Origin: Ectothiorhodospira shaposhnikovii
GTDB taxonomy: Bacteria > Pseudomonadota > Gammaproteobacteria > Ectothiorhodospirales > Ectothiorhodospiraceae
Assembly (NCBI RefSeq): GCF_022227765.1
Contig: NZ_JAJMLZ010000002.1
Coordinates: 62,001 to 126,000, forward strand
Reading direction: 5' to 3'
DNA length: 64,000 bases
Below the pieces are notes generated by a model. It was given only the letters and a program-made list of their open reading frames with translations, did not search any database and was not told the DNA's origin. Positions 5,990-33,114 of this stretch are shown here, one piece after another (the first letter of the stretch is position 1; every line of letters begins with the position of its first letter). The position numbers and the translations under genes are program-made.

Positions 5990-7456
5990 TTGGCCAATAC
6001 CCCCACCAGCGTCGCCAAGGGCGCCGCGCTGACCATCACCATGCGCTGGACCGACCGCCTGATCGGTCTTGTCAGCGTCATCATCCTTGCACGCCTTTTG
6101 GCGCCCGAGGATTTCGGCATCATTGTCATGGCCTCCCTGGTCATTGGCCTGGCGGATGTTCTGCTGGATCTGGGCGTGCATGTGGCCCTGATTCAGACCC
6201 CCTCTCCATCTCAGGATCATTACAACACGGCCTGGACGCTGCGTCTGCTGCAATGTGCGGCGGCCGCCGCGCTGGTGTGGGTGGCGGCGCCGTGGGCGGC
6301 GGTCTTTTTTGACGAGCCAAGCCTCACCCTGGTCATACAGATTCTTGCCCTCTCCTTTTTATTGAGCGGGCTGGAGAATATCGGCATCGTGAATTTCCAG
6401 AAGGAGATGCGCTTTGTCGAGGATTTCCAGTTCCTGTTTGCCCGGCGAATGGCCGGCTTTGTGACCACCATCGGGGCCGCCTTCGTGCTGCAGTCGTTCT
6501 GGGCACTGGTGATCGGGACTTTGGCGGGGCGTGCCTTCGGCCTGGTATTGAGCTATGTGATGCATCCCATGCGGCCCCGGCTGAGTCTGGCCCGATTCCA
6601 TGAGATTTTTGGTATTTCACAGTGGGTACTGGTGCGCAATATCGGTGTCTATCTGGATCAATCGTTGCACATGATGTTGGTGGGGCGGCGGGACAGCACC
6701 ACCGTGACGGGGGGATATTCCCTGGCCAACGAGATTTCCAGCATGCCCACCACCGAACTGCTGGCGCCGATCAATCGGGTGCTGTTCCCGGCCTTTGTGC
6801 GGGTGAAGCAGGATCTGACTGAACTCAAGCGTCTATTCCTGCTGGCGCAGGGGGTACAGGCCTTGATCGTGATTCCCGCCGGCACGGGGCTGGCCCTGGT
6901 GGCCCGAGAGGCAGTGGCCATACTGCTGGGTGAGCAATGGGGGTTCATCGTGCCTTTCGTGGAGATCATCGCGCTGGTCACGGTGGTCACCGCCCTGCTC
7001 TCCAGCGGCATCTATGTCTGCCTGACCCTGGGGCGTGTGAAGCTGGTGGCTGCCTATACCTGGTGGCAAGTGGGTGTTTTTGCCGTGCTCGCGGTGATGC
7101 TCCTGCCCCAGGCGGGTGCCTTGGAAATCGCTTGGTTGAGATTGTTCGTGGCGGCACTGGGGGTGGCCGTGTTTGCCGGGTTGCTGACCCGGACATTGTC
7201 GGGTCTGAAAGTGGGCGAGTTGGTGGGTGTGGTCTATCGGCCCCTGCTGGCGGCCCTTTTCATGGCACTGTGCGTGACGCAGCTTGGCGAGTTGATCCCG
7301 GGACCGGAATGGCTAATCCTGATGGCCCGCATCGGCTTGGGCATGGTCAGCTACATGTTGGCCATCATCCTGCTGTGGTGGCTGGCGGGCCGCCCCGCCG
7401 GGGCGGAAGCCTATGTGCTGAGGCAGGTACTCAGGCTGCGGCGGCGACATGACTGA
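5990..7456 (+). CDS. Lipopolysaccharide/oligosaccharide flippase (Wzx-like)
   Basis: This 488-residue integral membrane protein has about twelve predicted hydrophobic helices and the N-terminal pattern of the PST/MOP flippase family, 'RLIGLVSVIILARLLAPEDF' at residues 23-42, the hallmark of Wzx/RfbX proteins that move lipid-linked oligosaccharide units across the inner membrane. The later segment 'VYLDQSLHMMLVGRRDSTTV' is the equivalent of the second conserved motif. The start is a TTG at 5990, just 6 codons after an in-frame stop and without a clear Shine-Dalgarno site; an ATG 18 codons in is the alternative. A strong hairpin terminator follows the stop codon immediately. It may serve either the O-antigen block upstream or the XrtA exopolysaccharide, which has no other flippase in this window. 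Confidence 0.85.
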   Translation: MANTPTSVAKGAALTITMRWTDRLIGLVSVIILARLLAPEDFGIIVMASLVIGLADVLLDLGVHVALIQTPSPSQDHYNTAWTLRLLQCAAAAALVWVAAPWAAVFFDEPSLTLVIQILALSFLLSGLENIGIVNFQKEMRFVEDFQFLFARRMAGFVTTIGAAFVLQSFWALVIGTLAGRAFGLVLSYVMHPMRPRLSLARFHEIFGISQWVLVRNIGVYLDQSLHMMLVGRRDSTTVTGGYSLANEISSMPTTELLAPINRVLFPAFVRVKQDLTELKRLFLLAQGVQALIVIPAGTGLALVAREAVAILLGEQWGFIVPFVEIIALVTVVTALLSSGIYVCLTLGRVKLVAAYTWWQVGVFAVLAVMLLPQAGALEIAWLRLFVAALGVAVFAGLLTRTLSGLKVGELVGVVYRPLLAALFMALCVTQLGELIPGPEWLILMARIGLGMVSYMLAIILLWWLAGRPAGAEAYVLRQVLRLRRRHD

Positions 7457-7495
7457 AAAGGCCCCCTGCATCGTCATGTGACGCAGGGGGCCTTT
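7457..7495. terminator. Bidirectional rho-independent terminator
   Basis: A perfect 13-bp stem (7457-7469 pairs with 7483-7495) is flanked by AAA on one side and TTT on the other, so it can stop transcription from both the flippase (+) and the convergent PEP-CTERM gene (-). The 13-nt loop contains a small palindrome of its own (GTCA/TGAC, 7473-7482). Confidence 0.9.
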
Positions 7496-7537
7496 GCCGA
7501 TACGCCCTATGAGTGAAGACGGACGGGGCTCATTCCA

Positions 7538-8428
7538 TCAAGAAAACATCCGGCGACGACGCATGGCGGAGAGCAGGCCCAGAATACCCATGCCCATCAG
7601 CAGCAGGCTACCGGGTTCGGGGATATCCGTCCGGACATGCTCGGCATAGACCCGGATATTGATGTCGCTGGACTTGTCCCAACCAAAACCGTCGGAATCC
7701 ACCATGCCACCGAAAACGATTTCATCCAGGCCGGCATTACCGAAGAACCAGCGGTACAGGTCATCCGACTGATCCTGAGGGGTGCCGCTCAGAGCGGCGT
7801 TGGAAGCATGGTTGAACCACAGGGGCTGGGGATCACCCGTGGTACTGATGCCGTCCGCCGCAAAGAGATATTGGCCTTCGGAGAAGATCCCCAGATCAAA
7901 GAAGTCAATCTGCCAGATCTGAATGAAACTGCCACCGGACCCCTGGTAGGCCACACCGGGGTTATCCGGATAATCCACAGGAGTGATGGTGACGTTGGCA
8001 TTGTCCGTCTCATTACCGGTCACGTTGGCTGTTGCCACGCGCGGCACCACCGTGTCTTCTCCCTGATCCTGCCCCAGGAACAGGGAAATGGTCTGGTAAC
8101 GATCACCCAGTTGGAAATCGGACTCATACCCTCCTGCAATGGCCCAGACGGTGATCCGGTAAATATTCCAGTAGTCGGTGTGCTTGGGCTGACAGGACAG
8201 GCAAGGCAGGGTGAAATCATCACCGGCAATCCATGCATCGCCGGTTCCACCGGCTTCACTGCCGAAATCCCAAGCCACGTTGCTTCGATCCGGACCGGCA
8301 ACGTTATTGAGGTTTGTATTGGGGAGTCCGCGATCAACAACCAGCGCCGCCGAAGCAACACCGCTCATCCCCATCGCCAGCAGCCCAATCATGCCGCCGG
8401 CAATACATGCCGATTTTAGCGTTTTCAT
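7538..8428 (-). CDS. PEP-CTERM sorting domain-containing exported protein
   Basis: The 296-residue product has a signal peptide (cleavage likely after 'GVASA', residue 27) and a C-terminal PEP-CTERM tripartite signal at 269-296: the tetrapeptide-containing 'IPEPGS', a hydrophobic helix of about 16 residues, and the basic run 'RRRR'. Exosortase A cuts such tails at the inner membrane, releasing the protein towards the outer surface or matrix. The middle is acidic and rich in Gly, Asn and Asp, with one CxxC pair ('PCLSC'); I do not recognise a domain. It is a likely substrate of the XrtA encoded at 22600-24195. Upstream lies a sigma-54 type promoter (8467-8483), with an untranslated leader of about 30 nt. 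Confidence 0.9.
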   Translation of the reverse strand: MKTLKSACIAGGMIGLLAMGMSGVASAALVVDRGLPNTNLNNVAGPDRSNVAWDFGSEAGGTGDAWIAGDDFTLPCLSCQPKHTDYWNIYRITVWAIAGGYESDFQLGDRYQTISLFLGQDQGEDTVVPRVATANVTGNETDNANVTITPVDYPDNPGVAYQGSGGSFIQIWQIDFFDLGIFSEGQYLFAADGISTTGDPQPLWFNHASNAALSGTPQDQSDDLYRWFFGNAGLDEIVFGGMVDSDGFGWDKSSDINIRVYAEHVRTDIPEPGSLLLMGMGILGLLSAMRRRRMFS

Positions 8429-8466
8429 TGATGTCTCCGACGTCGCTTGATTTCTCCGCCTGAAAC

Positions 8467-8483
8467 AAGCAAAAAAGACACCA
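8467..8483 (-). promoter_or_regulatory. Sigma-54 (-24/-12) promoter of the PEP-CTERM gene
   Basis: On the minus strand the sequence reads TGGTGTCTTTTTTGCTT. The invariant GG and GC pairs are 12 nt apart, exactly the RpoN spacing, and the flanks match TGGyry and TTGCt. The implied start site, about 12 nt after the GC, leaves a short leader before the ATG at 8428. The second PEP-CTERM gene has a comparable element. Confidence 0.75.
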
Positions 8484-8553
8484 GTTTTTTAATTCATTGA
8501 TAATCAAAGCCTTAAAAAGGCCAGAGAGGTATTTTAAGATGAGGATGTCAACC

Positions 8554-8578
8554 ATCCCGACAGTGAGGTTATCAGGAC
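8554..8578 (-). promoter_or_regulatory. Candidate activator-binding site upstream of the sigma-54 promoter
   Basis: About 70-95 bp upstream of the -24 element lies an imperfect inverted repeat: on the minus strand TCCTGAT, then after about 8 nt TGTCGGGAT, i.e. ATCCCGACA on the plus strand. A near-identical ATCCTGACA occurs at a similar distance before the other PEP-CTERM gene. This is the usual position for an enhancer-binding protein site. Confidence 0.35.
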
Positions 8579-9630
8579 AAAGGGACCCGCGTTGAAGCCG
8601 CATTGACCGCATTGAGCAATAGGCGCGCCATGAAGCGGGATGGAATGCGATCCCAAGGTGAAAAGCGAGGCAGTTGCCAGCGGTCGGCATTCCGGGTAGC
8701 CACGCCACCGGCGGTGCTGAAGGCGGCTTCGAAACCCAGATCGCGCACCAGCCTGACATGTTCGGCCTGATAGTCATCAAACGGACGGCCGTTGGGATAG
8801 GCGAACAGGGTCACCGACTCATCCAGCAGGGACTGCAGCTCGGCTCGTCCCTGCTGGATTTCCTGCCGCACCGTCTCGATGCCCACGGTCGTGAAAATGG
8901 GATGGCTGACCGTATGACAGCCCAAGACCATGCCGGATTTCTGCAACCGTCGAACCTGGTTCGAGGTCATCATCAGGTCCGTGGGCAAACCGCTCGATAC
9001 GGGCTCGATGATGCGCTGTATCAGTGCATCACGGTCGGAAGGGTCCAGGTTTTTCAACAGGGCAATGAGTCGGCGAGTGGAACGGCGTTTTTCATGAATC
9101 GAGCCGGTCAGGAAACGCTGGCCCAGACTGTCGCTCAGATCCAGCAGGTCGGTTTCCATCAGGCGCATGGCCTCGATCACCGTGTCATGCCACATCCGCC
9201 CACCATCCAGATAGCCGGTGGAGATGAAAAACGTGGCGGGAACGCGATGCTTCAGCAGAATGGGCAAAGCCACGTTGGCATTGTCCGCGTAACCGTCGTC
9301 AAAGGTCACGCAGACCGCCTTGGGAGGCAAGGTGCCCTGGCTCAGTCTCTCCATGGCCTCCGGCAGGCTCAGCAAGTTGAAGTGTTCCGCCAGCAAGGCA
9401 ATCTGCCAGTGAAAGGTTTCGGCATCCAGTGCTTCCGGTCTGAAGGGGTCCGGCTCGGGAAGGACCTGGTGGAAGATGAGAATGGACAGTCGCCCATTTG
9501 CGCCACCCTTGCAGATCATGGGCAACAGCCTTCCGGTCAGATCCACCAGGCCGCGATCCAGTCGACTACTGGGCTCCGGAGTCAGCAAGTTGCGGGACAT
9601 ACCGGAAATGGTTGCAGTGTAATGTGTCAT
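8572..9630 (-). CDS. Polysaccharide deacetylase (carbohydrate esterase 4-like)
   Basis: The 352-residue product carries the NodB-domain motif 1, 'TFDDGYADN' (109-117), whose two Asp residues supply the catalytic base and a metal ligand, a motif 2-like 'GCHTVSHPIFT' with the metal-binding histidines, and a third segment 'FAYPNG'. It would remove N- or O-acetyl groups from polysaccharide. It differs from the XrtA-operon deacetylase at 26470-27348. The ATG at 9630 is preferred because it overlaps the stop of the upstream glycosyltransferase in an ATGA, as do the other genes of this operon; the open frame continues upstream to 9759. No signal peptide is evident, so action on a lipid-linked intermediate in the cytoplasm is possible. 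Confidence 0.85.
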   Translation of the reverse strand: MTHYTATISGMSRNLLTPEPSSRLDRGLVDLTGRLLPMICKGGANGRLSILIFHQVLPEPDPFRPEALDAETFHWQIALLAEHFNLLSLPEAMERLSQGTLPPKAVCVTFDDGYADNANVALPILLKHRVPATFFISTGYLDGGRMWHDTVIEAMRLMETDLLDLSDSLGQRFLTGSIHEKRRSTRRLIALLKNLDPSDRDALIQRIIEPVSSGLPTDLMMTSNQVRRLQKSGMVLGCHTVSHPIFTTVGIETVRQEIQQGRAELQSLLDESVTLFAYPNGRPFDDYQAEHVRLVRDLGFEAAFSTAGGVATRNADRWQLPRFSPWDRIPSRFMARLLLNAVNAASTRVPLS

Positions 9631-16631: not shown

Positions 16632-16656
16632 ATCCTGACAGGCAGAAACATCGGAT
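16632..16656 (+). promoter_or_regulatory. Candidate activator-binding site upstream of the sigma-54 promoter
   Basis: ATCCTGACA at the left end matches ATCCCGACA found before the first PEP-CTERM gene at 8 of 9 positions, and ATCGGAT at the right end gives a partial inverted repeat. It lies about 76-100 bp upstream of the -24 box. The proposal rests on two sites only. Confidence 0.35.
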
Positions 16657-16730
16657 TTTTTTACAATCTCAAGACTAAAAGCTTGAGGCACTCCGCATAA
16701 AATCGCATCCGGAAGCCATCACCCCGCTAC

Positions 16731-16747
16731 AGGCACACTTCATGCTT
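16731..16747 (+). promoter_or_regulatory. Sigma-54 (-24/-12) promoter of the second PEP-CTERM gene
   Basis: The sequence AGGCACACTTCATGCTT contains GGCAC and TGCTT with GG and GC 12 nt apart, the diagnostic RpoN spacing. The implied start near 16757 leaves a leader of about 45 nt, which includes a GAAGGA ribosome-binding site 10 nt before the ATG at 16802. Confidence 0.75.
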
Positions 16748-16801: not shown

Positions 16802-17452
16802 ATGAACACAGCCCACAACAAGAACAACACACTGAAGCATCTAGTCATGGCACTGTTGGTCGGCGCCGGCACCTTGGTGGGTACGGCTCAGGCTGCGGTC
16901 ATTACCCTGACGACCACGGTAACCAACGCGCCTAACCAAATTAGCTTTCAAAAGACGGGCAGCACATCAGGGGAAATCAACGGTTGGCAGGTGCAGGGCA
17001 TCCCCACGTTTTTGTTCAAAGTCACGAATACCAACGCAAACATTAACAACAGAATAATTACTGTGGAGTTGAAGCTTGAAGGTGCTCGTGACGAATGGGA
17101 ATGGTCTGATACCTATTCGCTTACCGGCACAATTAGCAAGAACGCTAGTACCTATGCTCTCAATTGGAGTAACCTGACCATCGGCACTGCGCCCAATGAG
17201 GGAATCCCATACATTCGGCTCAGCTTCGCCCCCTTGAGCGTCGTAGGTCAGGCCGAGGGTTCGATAAATCCCATTTTCAGCTCCTGGTTACCGTCCGCAA
17301 ATTCATTAGGCGGATCATCAGAAAGCAATCCCGACAACCTCAACACCCCGAACAACCTCGTCACCGCCGTCCCCGAACCCGGCATACTGGCCCTGTTCGG
17401 TGCCGGCCTGCTTGGCGCAATGGGCTTCCTGCGGCGCAGACGCGCCATCTGA
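16802..17452 (+). CDS. PEP-CTERM sorting domain-containing exported protein
   Basis: The 216-residue product has a Sec signal peptide (hydrophobic core around residues 14-28, cleavage likely after 'AQA' at 31) and a C-terminal sorting signal at 190-216: 'VPEPG', a hydrophobic helix and a terminal 'RRRR' cluster. It is thus a second likely substrate of the XrtA encoded at 22600. The mature region is Asn/Thr/Ser-rich and beta-strand-like, with no recognised enzyme domain and no Cys, as is usual for matrix PEP-CTERM proteins. The ATG at 16802 is chosen over an in-frame GTG at 16784 because a GAAGGA site precedes it and the signal peptide then has normal length. A sigma-54 promoter lies upstream; repeat hairpins follow downstream. 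Confidence 0.88.
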   Translation: MNTAHNKNNTLKHLVMALLVGAGTLVGTAQAAVITLTTTVTNAPNQISFQKTGSTSGEINGWQVQGIPTFLFKVTNTNANINNRIITVELKLEGARDEWEWSDTYSLTGTISKNASTYALNWSNLTIGTAPNEGIPYIRLSFAPLSVVGQAEGSINPIFSSWLPSANSLGGSSESNPDNLNTPNNLVTAVPEPGILALFGAGLLGAMGFLRRRRAI

Positions 17453-21445: not shown

Positions 21446-22603
21446 TTATCTCTTGGAGAGTCTGTCATAGACGTTCAGGTAGCCCTGCACCATGGCTTCC
21501 AGGCTGTAGCGCTGCCGTGCCCGCTCCCGGGCGGTGCCGCCGTGGGTCCGCGCCAGGGCCATGTCGTCCAGATAGTCGCTCAGGGCGTCGGCCAGGGCCT
21601 CGGGATCGCCGGCGGGGATCAGGGTGCCGGTCTGGCCCGGCTCGATCAGGTCGGGATTGCCCCCCACCGCGGTGCCGATCACCGGCAGACCGGTGGCCAT
21701 GGCCTCCAATATGGTGTTGCAAATGCCTTCCGCCAGGGAAGGCACCACGCACAGGTCCATCGCCGCCATCAGGTCGGGAATGTCGTCACGGTTGCCGGGC
21801 AGCCAGGCCAGGTCGGCAACACCGGCTTCCCGCAGACGGGCCTGCAGCCCCTCCCACAGGGGGCCGTCTCCGATCATCACCAGACGCAGCCTGCGCTTCA
21901 GCCCTTCATCCCGCCTCAGCAGGGCAAGCACGGCCTCCACCAGGATATCCGGGGCCTTGACCGCCTGCATCCGCATGACAGCGCCGATGACAACAGCCTC
22001 CGGGGGCGCGAATCCCTCCGGCAGGATGGAGCGGACCTGGGCCTTGTCCCGGGGTGAAAAACGGACAACATCCACCCCGTTGCAGATATGGTTCAGGCGG
22101 GCCGGGGCCACGCTGATCTGCCGTGACAGGTAATCCAGCTGGTGCCGGGACAGGGCAATGTACTGGCCCACCAGGGGCCGGAACACACGGCGCAGGTGCC
22201 GGGTTTTGGCCCGGGAGCCGTCCAGATCACCGATGTCCCAGCCATGCTCGCCATGGACACGCCGCCTCACCCCCGCCAGGGCGGCAATGGCCTGGGTCTC
22301 CAGGGTGGCCATGTTGCGGGTATGGACAATGTCCGGCCGCAGTCGGCGCAGCAGCCGCCAGAGCCGGCCGTGGACCTTGAGGTCCTTGCCCTCCTGCTTG
22401 TGCAGAGCATGCAGCGTCACGTCGTCGCGGCGAATGCGGCGACTGAAATCGGTGTAGTCCGTCATGCACACGATGGCATGGCGGTAGCGGTCCGCCGGCA
22501 TGTGGTTGATCAGGTTGACCAGACCGTTCTCCATGCCGCCCACGTCCAGACGATGAATGATGTGGGCCACCAGCGGTGGTGTACCCCGCGGGCCGTTGGT
22601 CAT
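21446..22603 (-). CDS. XrtA-associated glycosyltransferase (TIGR03088 type, GT4)
   Basis: The 385-residue product begins 'VAHIIHRLDVGGMENGLVNL', the signature of the PEP-CTERM/EpsH1-associated sugar transferase family, and has the GT4 pocket residues in 'LCVVPSLAEGICNTILEAMA' followed by 'TGLPVIGTAVGGNPDLI'. It would transfer a sugar to the lipid-linked repeat unit on the cytoplasmic face. The ATG overlaps the exosortase stop codon (ATGA), so the two are translationally coupled, as is usual in this operon. Donor and linkage are unknown. Confidence 0.9.
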   Translation of the reverse strand: MTNGPRGTPPLVAHIIHRLDVGGMENGLVNLINHMPADRYRHAIVCMTDYTDFSRRIRRDDVTLHALHKQEGKDLKVHGRLWRLLRRLRPDIVHTRNMATLETQAIAALAGVRRRVHGEHGWDIGDLDGSRAKTRHLRRVFRPLVGQYIALSRHQLDYLSRQISVAPARLNHICNGVDVVRFSPRDKAQVRSILPEGFAPPEAVVIGAVMRMQAVKAPDILVEAVLALLRRDEGLKRRLRLVMIGDGPLWEGLQARLREAGVADLAWLPGNRDDIPDLMAAMDLCVVPSLAEGICNTILEAMATGLPVIGTAVGGNPDLIEPGQTGTLIPAGDPEALADALSDYLDDMALARTHGGTARERARQRYSLEAMVQGYLNVYDRLSKR

Positions 22604-24195
22604 GAGCCTGACTCCGGCCGGTATTCCACCTGGATCAGCCCGGGCATGCGGGTCAGGAAATCCTGCAGGACGGCCCGCCCCTCATCGGCGGTGATCGGGA
22701 ACTCCGTGGTCACGGCCACCAGCAGCGAGCCGTCCCGATGGCCACTGAGCCGGGCCCAGGCCTCCAGGAGCTTGACCTCGATGGGTCGGGCGGTGGCACG
22801 ATCCGCCACCTGGTACCAGTGCCAGACGATGCGGCCGCGATCTCCGGGACCGCGCATGACCGTTTCGCGGACCATGTGGGGCTCGCCGCCGGCAAGGATC
22901 ACGCCGCGCCCGGACTCGGAAATCCGGCGCCAACGGACTTCATCGTAGATCAGGTTGCCGTAGGTGATGAGATCCGTACCGGCCTGGTCATGACGGTAAT
23001 GAGACAGGTGCAACGCCAGCTCACGTCCGTTTTCAGACCGGTAGGCATGCTGGGACTGGTAATCCGGCTCGGCAAACCGGGGCTGCCAGACCGGTGATTC
23101 GTCCCGCTGGGGTAAGGTCCAGCCCGTGACCTGGGGGGCCACCGGATAACGGTCACCGGCCAGGGCGGCCATGCGCTGGTTGAGGCCCATCTCGGTCAGG
23201 GGGGCCATGGACAGAACCACGGCGGCCAGGACAAGGGGCATGACCACCGGGGAGACCGCCATGGGGGACGGGTTCCCGGCCCGTGTGGTCGGCTGTTGCC
23301 GGCTCCCCTCTTCCGGATGGTCGTCTTCCCGGAACAGGCTGCCCACCCAGAACAGCAGGAACATCACCACGCCGAAGAACAACCAGCCGTAGATCAGATG
23401 GTCCACCCCGACGGCGTGTTCCATGTCGGTCCAGTGGGCGATCATGATGATGCCGTAGGCCCGCAGGCCGTTGGCCACGATGGGCACGATGATGGCGAAG
23501 GCCGTGAACACCAGTCGCCGCCAGAGGCTGCGGTAAACCAGATAGGCGTACACCAGCCCCAGGGCCACCGAGGCGATCAGATAGCGGATGCCGCTGCAGA
23601 CCTCGGCCACCACGAAATCCCCGGCGGGAATGCTGATGTAGTAGCCCTCGGCAAATACCGGCAGCCCCGTCAGACGCAGCATGAGCACGGTGAACCAGGC
23701 GGTATAGTCCTGCAGGATGGGGACCAGGAAGCTCCCCACCGGCCAGGCGAAGAAGACATAGGCCAGGGGGAAAGTCAGCGCCCTGGAGATGCCAAGCCCC
23801 AGAATGGTGATGACCAGGGCGGGCACCATGGCCACTACCACGAAGGTCTGGACCACGGTGACATCGGCGGCCCGGGCCAGAATCCAGCCGAAACCGAGGG
23901 CGGCGATCAGCAGGATGCCCAGGTAGCTGGGCTGGGGGGTGAGTTCGGCCAGTCGGCGGCGCATGCGCCAGGCCAGAAACAGGCTGATGGGCAGGATGAC
24001 CAGGCCGTGGGCGTAGGTGTCGGAAGTGGTCCAGATATGCACCAGCTTCTGCACACTGGGCCAGTAGAGGAGCACCATGGCGCCCATGCCCGCGACCAGG
24101 AGCCCCAGGGCCAGGGGCCATGACAGGCCCGCACTCCGTGGGGCTGCCGGGTCTGCTGATGGATGTTCAGCCGATGTTGAGACAGTGGTGTTCAT
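22600..24195 (-). CDS. xrtA: Exosortase A fused to an EpsI domain
   Basis: The 531-residue product is the sorting enzyme of the PEP-CTERM system. The N-terminal ~285 residues hold eight or so membrane helices and the transpeptidase-like catalytic residues: Cys200 in 'AEVCSGIRYL', Arg245 in 'ANGLRAYG' and His266 in 'GVDHLIYGW'. After a hydrophilic linker (290-310) and one more hydrophobic segment comes a periplasmic EpsI-type domain (about 345-525), which in other genomes can be a separate gene next to epsH. It cleaves the PEP-CTERM tails of exported proteins such as those at 7538 and 16802. It overlaps both neighbours by 4 nt, inside the polysaccharide operon. Confidence 0.95.
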   Translation of the reverse strand: MNTTVSTSAEHPSADPAAPRSAGLSWPLALGLLVAGMGAMVLLYWPSVQKLVHIWTTSDTYAHGLVILPISLFLAWRMRRRLAELTPQPSYLGILLIAALGFGWILARAADVTVVQTFVVVAMVPALVITILGLGISRALTFPLAYVFFAWPVGSFLVPILQDYTAWFTVLMLRLTGLPVFAEGYYISIPAGDFVVAEVCSGIRYLIASVALGLVYAYLVYRSLWRRLVFTAFAIIVPIVANGLRAYGIIMIAHWTDMEHAVGVDHLIYGWLFFGVVMFLLFWVGSLFREDDHPEEGSRQQPTTRAGNPSPMAVSPVVMPLVLAAVVLSMAPLTEMGLNQRMAALAGDRYPVAPQVTGWTLPQRDESPVWQPRFAEPDYQSQHAYRSENGRELALHLSHYRHDQAGTDLITYGNLIYDEVRWRRISESGRGVILAGGEPHMVRETVMRGPGDRGRIVWHWYQVADRATARPIEVKLLEAWARLSGHRDGSLLVAVTTEFPITADEGRAVLQDFLTRMPGLIQVEYRPESGS

Positions 24196-32490: not shown

Positions 32491-33114
32491 TTAGAACCAG
32501 GACTCGGGAATGATGAGGATATCGCCGGGCAGCACGGCCACATTGGCCTCGATATCCCCCTTGTTGATCAGGTCATTGATGCGGACCCCGAACTGCCGAG
32601 CTTCGCCGTTGATGTTGCGCACGATGGAGGCCCGGTTGCCGGCGGCAAACTCCGTCACGCCGCCCACGGCGATCATGACATCCAGCAGGGTCATGTTTTC
32701 GTTATAGGGAATGGCCTGGGGGTTGGCCGCCTGCCCCACCACCCGGATCTGCTGGTCATAGGGTCCGCGGAAACCGGTGACGATCACGGTGACCACCGGG
32801 TCACGCACATAGACGGAGAGCACTTCCTCCATGTCCCGGGCCAGCTGGGTCGGGGTCTTGTTGGCGGCGGGGACATCTTCGATGAGGGGAGTGGTGATCT
32901 TGCCGTCGGGGCGGACCGGCACCGACATGGACAACTCGGGCTGGCGCCAGACGAAGATGTTGACGTTGTCGCCCGGTCCGATGATGTAGTCGGGACTGCC
33001 GGTGAACTCCACGGCTTCCAGGGGGGGATGTCTGGTGGCACAACCGCTGAGCACCAGGATCAGCAACGAAACGACGAGAAGACCGATACAGCCTGACAGG
33101 CGATGCTTGTTCAC
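32491..33114 (-). CDS. XrtA-system polysaccharide export lipoprotein (Wza-like)
   Basis: The 207-residue product has a lipoprotein signal peptide with lipobox 'VLSGC' (Cys25) and one poly-export domain, 'DYIIGPGDNVNIFVWRQPEL' and 'VRPDGKITTPLIEDV', followed by a SLBB-like segment ending 'GDILIIPESWF', the usual terminal motif of TIGR03027 proteins. It is shorter than Wza and may depend on the barrel protein of the same operon to cross the outer membrane. The GTG start is supported by a strong AAGGAGG site 6 nt upstream. It is the first gene of the eleven-gene XrtA operon (33114 down to 19548). Confidence 0.92.
   Translation of the reverse strand: MNKHRLSGCIGLLVVSLLILVLSGCATRHPPLEAVEFTGSPDYIIGPGDNVNIFVWRQPELSMSVPVRPDGKITTPLIEDVPAANKTPTQLARDMEEVLSVYVRDPVVTVIVTGFRGPYDQQIRVVGQAANPQAIPYNENMTLLDVMIAVGGVTEFAAGNRASIVRNINGEARQFGVRINDLINKGDIEANVAVLPGDILIIPESWF

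Follow-up and report, generated by a model that had tools for sequence, protein, structure and literature searches.

The PEP-CTERM protein gene at 7538..8428 (minus strand) of Ectothiorhodospira shaposhnikovii raises the question of how such a gene is switched on. It lies in a window of 64,000 nucleotides, by which we mean the whole stretch of DNA analysed here. The gene encodes 296 aa with a TIGR02595 match at residues 269-293 (23.1 bits, cut-off 16), and its product is a secreted biofilm-type protein. A contig search for relatives turned up a Rhodobacteraceae MAG with a single partial match, 42% over residues 177-272; this match was left out of the analysis. A sequence-only reading of this DNA had proposed a sigma-54 promoter with a GG-N10-GC -24/-12 element about 40 nt before the ATG. 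The element is present: TGGTGTCTTTTTTGCT at 8468..8483 (minus strand) has the GG-N10-GC spacing exactly, and 40 nt separate its C(-12) from the ATG at 8428. Transcription would be expected to start (+1) near 8457.

The sigma-54 -24/-12 consensus is TGGCACG-N4-TTGCW. TGGTGTCTTTTTTGCT agrees with it at 8/12 positions, the weakest score among the genome's five PEP-CTERM promoters. In the window the pattern TGGYRY-N5-TTGC occurs 3 times against 1.36 expected, a count reached in 15/100 shuffles, and the neighbouring deacetylase gene contains one of the two further copies (8616-8630). Taken alone, the -24/-12 element is therefore weak and not beyond chance, and we rejected TGGYRY-N5-TTGC on its own as evidence of a promoter because its frequency in the window is at chance level.

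What lifts the match beyond chance is an enhancer box upstream, combined with the -24/-12 element. The 17-nt box TGTCGGGATGGTTGACA (8546..8562, minus strand; 11/12) is separated from the element by a spacer of 62 nt, and its centre is computed to lie at about -98. By length, TTTACA end and spacing we assigned it to motif 1 of Haft et al. (PMC1569441), the predicted PrsR site. The promoter sections of that 2006 paper describe motif 1 (17 nt, ending TTTACA), a spacer and a -24/-12 motif before 99/167 proteobacterial PEP-CTERM genes, with a spacer of mean 62.8, SD 10.6 and range 32-92, and predict PrsR as the activator. The window's second PEP-CTERM gene (16802..17452, plus strand, ATG at 16802; 216 aa; TIGR02595 25.4 bits, cut-off 16) had been said to share the arrangement of the first. 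This is so for the GG-N10-GC core, found in AGGCACACTTCATGCT at 16731..16746 (plus strand; 9/12), and not for the pattern that the same reading had put forward: TGGYRY-N5-TTGC misses AGGCACACTTCATGCT, since an A precedes GG and ATGC stands where TTGC is expected. The enhancer box of this second gene, CATCGGATTTTTTTACA (16649..16665, plus strand; 10/12; spacer 65 nt), has CATCGG in place of TGTCGG and escapes the strict composite pattern of box and promoter. Neither of the two boxes had been noticed by the sequence-only reading.

The layout recurs across the genome. All 5 PEP-CTERM genes over the cut-off (four matches under it were left out) have a box (10-12 of 12 positions) and a GG-N10-GC element (8-10 of 12), with spacers of 62, 65, 74, 74 and 95 nt. 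The strict composite with a gap of 45-75 occurs 3 times in the 3.34 Mb genome, only before PEP-CTERM genes, and 0 times in the reversed control. A gap of 76-106 adds 2 further matches, one belonging to the fourth PEP-CTERM gene and the other, C12:39539-39647, to an HprK/PqqD-like operon discussed below. A relaxed composite (TCGG start, gap 70-100) has 4 matches in the genome, of which the one at C39:137736 seems to be due to chance, its sole possible box lacking TGTCGG and the surrounding stretch being full of open frames. As a side observation, a 952-aa TPR-like ORF (L028, 4963-7821, minus strand), a candidate for PrsT, converges on the PEP-CTERM gene at C12:174.8 kb.

We extended the search to a class sample of 369 genomes, with the reversed pattern as control. 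The composite with a gap of 45-75 was found in 77/369 genomes (161 matches, against 4 in the control), and that with a gap of 76-106 in 28/369 (41 matches, against 1). Of the 161 matches at the shorter gap 150 were analysed, 135 of them with a box ending ACA; the 15 with a box ending CCA were kept separate as weak. PrsR scored over its cut-off in 106/369 genomes and was present in 66/77 genomes with the composite pattern versus 40/292 without it (Fisher P 3.6e-33, a value overstated because the genomes are related). Eleven of the 77 pattern genomes have no PrsR, and 40/106 PrsR genomes have no strict match at gap 45-75. Downstream ORFs were chosen automatically, and several look wrong-frame; 128 of the 135 listed matches had one, 111 of these complete. 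Among these complete ORFs TIGR02595 was matched in 53/111 (E <=0.1) and PF07589 in 55/111 (E <=0.01), whilst a PxP, hydrophobic and basic tail, by a rule of our own, was present in 64/111 and absent from 47/111. A second box (at least 10/12) lay within 250 nt upstream in 50/175 promoters among the matches listed; in the opposite orientation the count was 9.

The proteins expected to act at such a promoter are encoded in the genome. PrsR (729.9 bits, cut-off 502.6) and PrsK (767.5 bits, cut-off 300) are the products of adjacent genes on contig C12. RpoN is present in one copy, and three proteins belong to the HU/IHF family: IhfA (163.5 bits, cut-off 120.25), IhfB (153.2 bits, cut-off 119.95) and a third nearest to HU. 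Directly readable from the sequence are the box and the -24/-12 element, the distance between them, and the genes for PrsK, PrsR and RpoN. Together with the layout at 5/5 PEP-CTERM genes and the co-occurrence across the class, they support the proposal of a sigma-54 promoter. We put the probability that gene 7538..8428 is transcribed from a looped sigma-54 promoter under PrsR/PrsK control at roughly 0.86.

Two other accounts of this promoter have to be weighed. If the -24/-12 match were fortuitous, an ordinary sigma-70 or ECF promoter would drive the gene, as the near-chance rate of the element alone in the window would allow. We consider this very improbable given the composite with the box and its repetition at 5/5 over-cut-off PEP-CTERM genes; moreover, no sigma-70-like promoter was found on the minus strand of 7450-8620, where one weak site lies on the opposite strand. 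Alternatively, the promoter could depend on sigma-54 and be opened by a different NtrC-type activator, for which candidates exist, as 14 stretches of the genome match the PrsR model at <=1e-20. Yet one alone exceeds the PrsR cut-off, genomes of the class that have the box tend to have PrsR as well, and the sections of PMC1569441 that deal with the regulator tie the 17-nt motif to PrsR by phylogenetic profile, so that we give another activator a slim chance.

Control by PrsR through a loop gains detail from the distances between box and promoter. We assembled 177 box-promoter pairs among the matches listed, namely the 135 above and 42 with longer gaps (76-106). Their spacers peak near 52, 62-64, 74, 85 and 95-96 nt, and empty gaps recur at 55-59, 67-68, 88-92 and 98-104 nt. 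The best period is about 10.95 nt, that is, one turn of DNA, and 161/177 pairs are in phase within 2.7 nt. For the 94 pairs outside 60-66 nt the Rayleigh Z is 35.7, compared with maxima of 13.6 in 2000 uniform simulations and 17.8 in 2000 smoothed ones. Steps of 11 nt in the box-promoter spacing are thus an established regularity of sequence across the class. Because the spacers advance by one turn at a time, box and promoter presumably have to lie on facing sides of the DNA.

Between the box and the promoter of gene 7538..8428 there is an IHF-like site, TAAGGCTTTGATT (8502..8514, minus strand). Its other strand, AATCAAAGCCTTA, corresponds to WATCAANNNNTTR, the E. coli IHF consensus as quoted in PMC5963220, at 9/9 positions. 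The distance from the site to the -24 element is 18 nt, and part of it is shared with a short terminator-like hairpin. At this place, 17-20 nt before the -24 element, IHF-like sites of at least 7/9 occur in 2/6 composite promoters of the genome (8502..8514 and one on C4, 7/9), and the second PEP-CTERM gene has none of at least 7/9 at the expected place. Across the class, the spacer contains YAANNNNTTGATW, which is the E. coli consensus read on the opposite strand, at the same 17-20 nt before the -24 element. Among the 135 matches listed, a set that is not blind for IHF because the element was first spotted by eye in that listing, IHF-like sites of at least 7/9 are present in 71/135 (dinucleotide shuffles: mean 6.8, max 14), of 8/9 in 38/135 (mean 0.8, max 5) and perfect in 15/135 (mean 0.03, max 1). 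The 42 longer-spacer pairs were gathered after the IHF idea had been noted, two of them coming from this genome and having been seen earlier; here the site is found in 15/42 (shuffle mean 1.9, max 7), with 9/18 at 83-87 nt and 1/11 at 93-97 nt. The set with CCA-ending boxes gives 3/15 (shuffle mean 0.41, max 3). The element keeps to the promoter and not to the box, its distance from the box being about 20, 31 and 42 nt in the three spacer classes. Moreover, a de novo EM motif search without IHF input returned a TAACTCATTGATT-like motif 14-16 nt before the promoter in 96/135 of the matches listed. We regard the IHF-like element before the -24 element as, in all likelihood, a sequence regularity across the class. 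At loci L195, L197 and L200 (genomes G021 and G277), which belong to the spacer class of 95-97 nt, another A+T-rich stretch (AAATTTAAG...ATGTA) replaces the IHF-like site.

Both regularities admit other explanations. The 11-nt steps could reflect shared descent of copied promoters instead of a need for helical phasing, and many of the promoters do come from the same genomes, the 177 pairs among the matches listed representing 73 genomes and 48 families. When one pair per family was drawn (500 draws), Z still averaged 22.2 and was never below 14.2, and outside 60-66 nt it averaged 11.3 with a lowest value of 4.8. With the empty gaps recurring as well, we find shared descent unlikely as the source of the steps. 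The identity of the conserved element is less secure. It could amount to A+T richness, to the site of another regulator or, at 8502-8514, to part of the upstream gene's terminator: A+T richness extends over all of the sequence preceding the promoter, the perfect match coincides with the terminator-like hairpin, and most promoters of this genome have no good IHF match. Against this, the shuffles quoted above preserve A+T content and fall far short of the observed counts, the other strand at the same place yields 6 matches among the 135 listed and 0 perfect ones, and the de novo motif recovers the IHF consensus including its 4-nt gap. A non-IHF origin is accordingly a real possibility, if in our view the less favoured one.

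Taking the PrsR-controlled, looped promoter as our reading, the following mechanism may be envisaged. The sigma-54 promoter of gene 7538..8428 would stay silent until PrsR acts. The kinase PrsK would phosphorylate the response regulator PrsR, which would then bind the box at 8546-8562 and touch RNA polymerase through a DNA loop. Such a loop would require the box to keep to one side of the DNA helix, as the class distances in steps of about 10.9 nt suggest, and a bend introduced by IHF at 8502-8514 would help it to form.

The sorting and export machinery of the window presents a different picture. The sorting enzyme, exosortase XrtA, is encoded at 22600..24195 (minus strand; TIGR03109, EpsI domain, 339 bits, cut-off 208), where there is no composite match. 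The XrtA/PEP-CTERM system exopolysaccharide export gene at 32491..33114 (minus strand; TIGR03027, 248.3 bits, cut-off 180) probably stands at the head of the XrtA operon. No box of at least 9/12 lies in the 500 nt upstream of it, and the best GG-N10-GC in that stretch scores 8/12 and is 392 nt away. The sequence-only reading had described the XrtA operon as devoid of the element, which is correct for these 500 nt, and had suggested that machinery and substrates are controlled differently. Different control of export machinery is not a general rule, given that in another genome (G179) a polysaccharide export gene (L116, 1156-1944, minus strand) lies behind a composite promoter, so that the regulon can include genes for export.

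The regulon may also reach beyond PEP-CTERM genes. The composite promoter at C12:39539-39647 (minus strand; locus L065) lies outside the window, 22 kb to its left, and has two full TGTCGG boxes. The first gene behind it encodes a 242-aa secreted leader protein whose leader reads SRRRF and which matches no NCBIfam family. Next come a PqqD-like ORF, whose TIGR04353 score of 32.9 bits is below the cut-off of 35, and the beginning of a gene for an HprK-related kinase, a fragment of which scores 42.6 bits against TIGR04352 (cut-off 200). Several other genomes have this set of genes behind composite promoters too. Related leader proteins are found behind composite promoters at L147, L167 and L063 (E 7e-6 to 5e-4), a weaker relative at L216 (E 0.01), and L223 is linked via L167. 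HprK-like starts occur in 8 promoter loci of 8 genomes, this one included, among the matches listed. Searches of the open-access literature for PEP-CTERM with HprK, and for HPr-rel-A, found nothing. We offer, at about even odds, the wider proposal that PrsR promoters throughout the class share one looping design (a sigma-54 promoter, a box on one face of the helix and an IHF bend some 19 nt upstream of the -24 element), and that the regulon also covers a Tat-leader/PqqD-like/HprK-related operon, which would place two surface systems on one signal.

In summary, a matrix-protein gene appears to be tied to a two-component, all-or-nothing promoter, and the sequence rule of box, phased distance, IHF-like site and -24/-12 element is specific enough for the regulon of a new genome to be listed from it. 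Should both phasing and IHF prove true, production of biofilm and floc matrix would depend on DNA bending in addition to the PrsK signal. The HprK/PqqD-like operons provide a new lead on further PrsR targets. Our literature search covered open-access work, with subscription papers mostly outside it. Within that scope no description of an IHF site or of helical phasing in PEP-CTERM promoters turned up, titles on helical phase between enhancers and sigma-54 promoters concerning other systems and those on PEP-CTERM with integration host factor concerning Geobacter expression and fruit-fly symbionts, and the 11-nt spacing steps and the IHF-like element are new relative to that literature.

The promoter arrangement as such has been known since 2006, and gene 7538..8428 joins the predicted regulon. 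It resembles the system of Haft et al. (PMC1569441) in its 17-nt box with a TTTACA-like end, spacer of 62 nt, -24/-12 element, PEP-CTERM gene and possession of both PrsK and PrsR. It differs in its leader, which is 40 nt from GC where the published leaders average 71, counted from motif 2, and in the promoter sections of that paper the spacer appears as mean, SD and range, without 11-nt steps or an IHF-like element. In Aquincola tertiaricarbonis RN12, transcription of pepA needs RpoN1 and its start has been mapped at a -24/-12 element (2023, PMC9850573). That promoter likewise precedes a PEP-CTERM gene and has a predicted enhancer upstream, whereas ours belongs to another species and another PEP-CTERM gene, and the account of the pepA promoter there makes no mention of an IHF site. 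Sigma-54 promoters commonly involve IHF, according to PMC7962754. The order of enhancer, IHF-like site and -24/-12 element seen here is that of NtrC-type promoters with IHF, but the regulator would be PrsR, the box is much closer and phased, and the IHF-like site is a predicted one.
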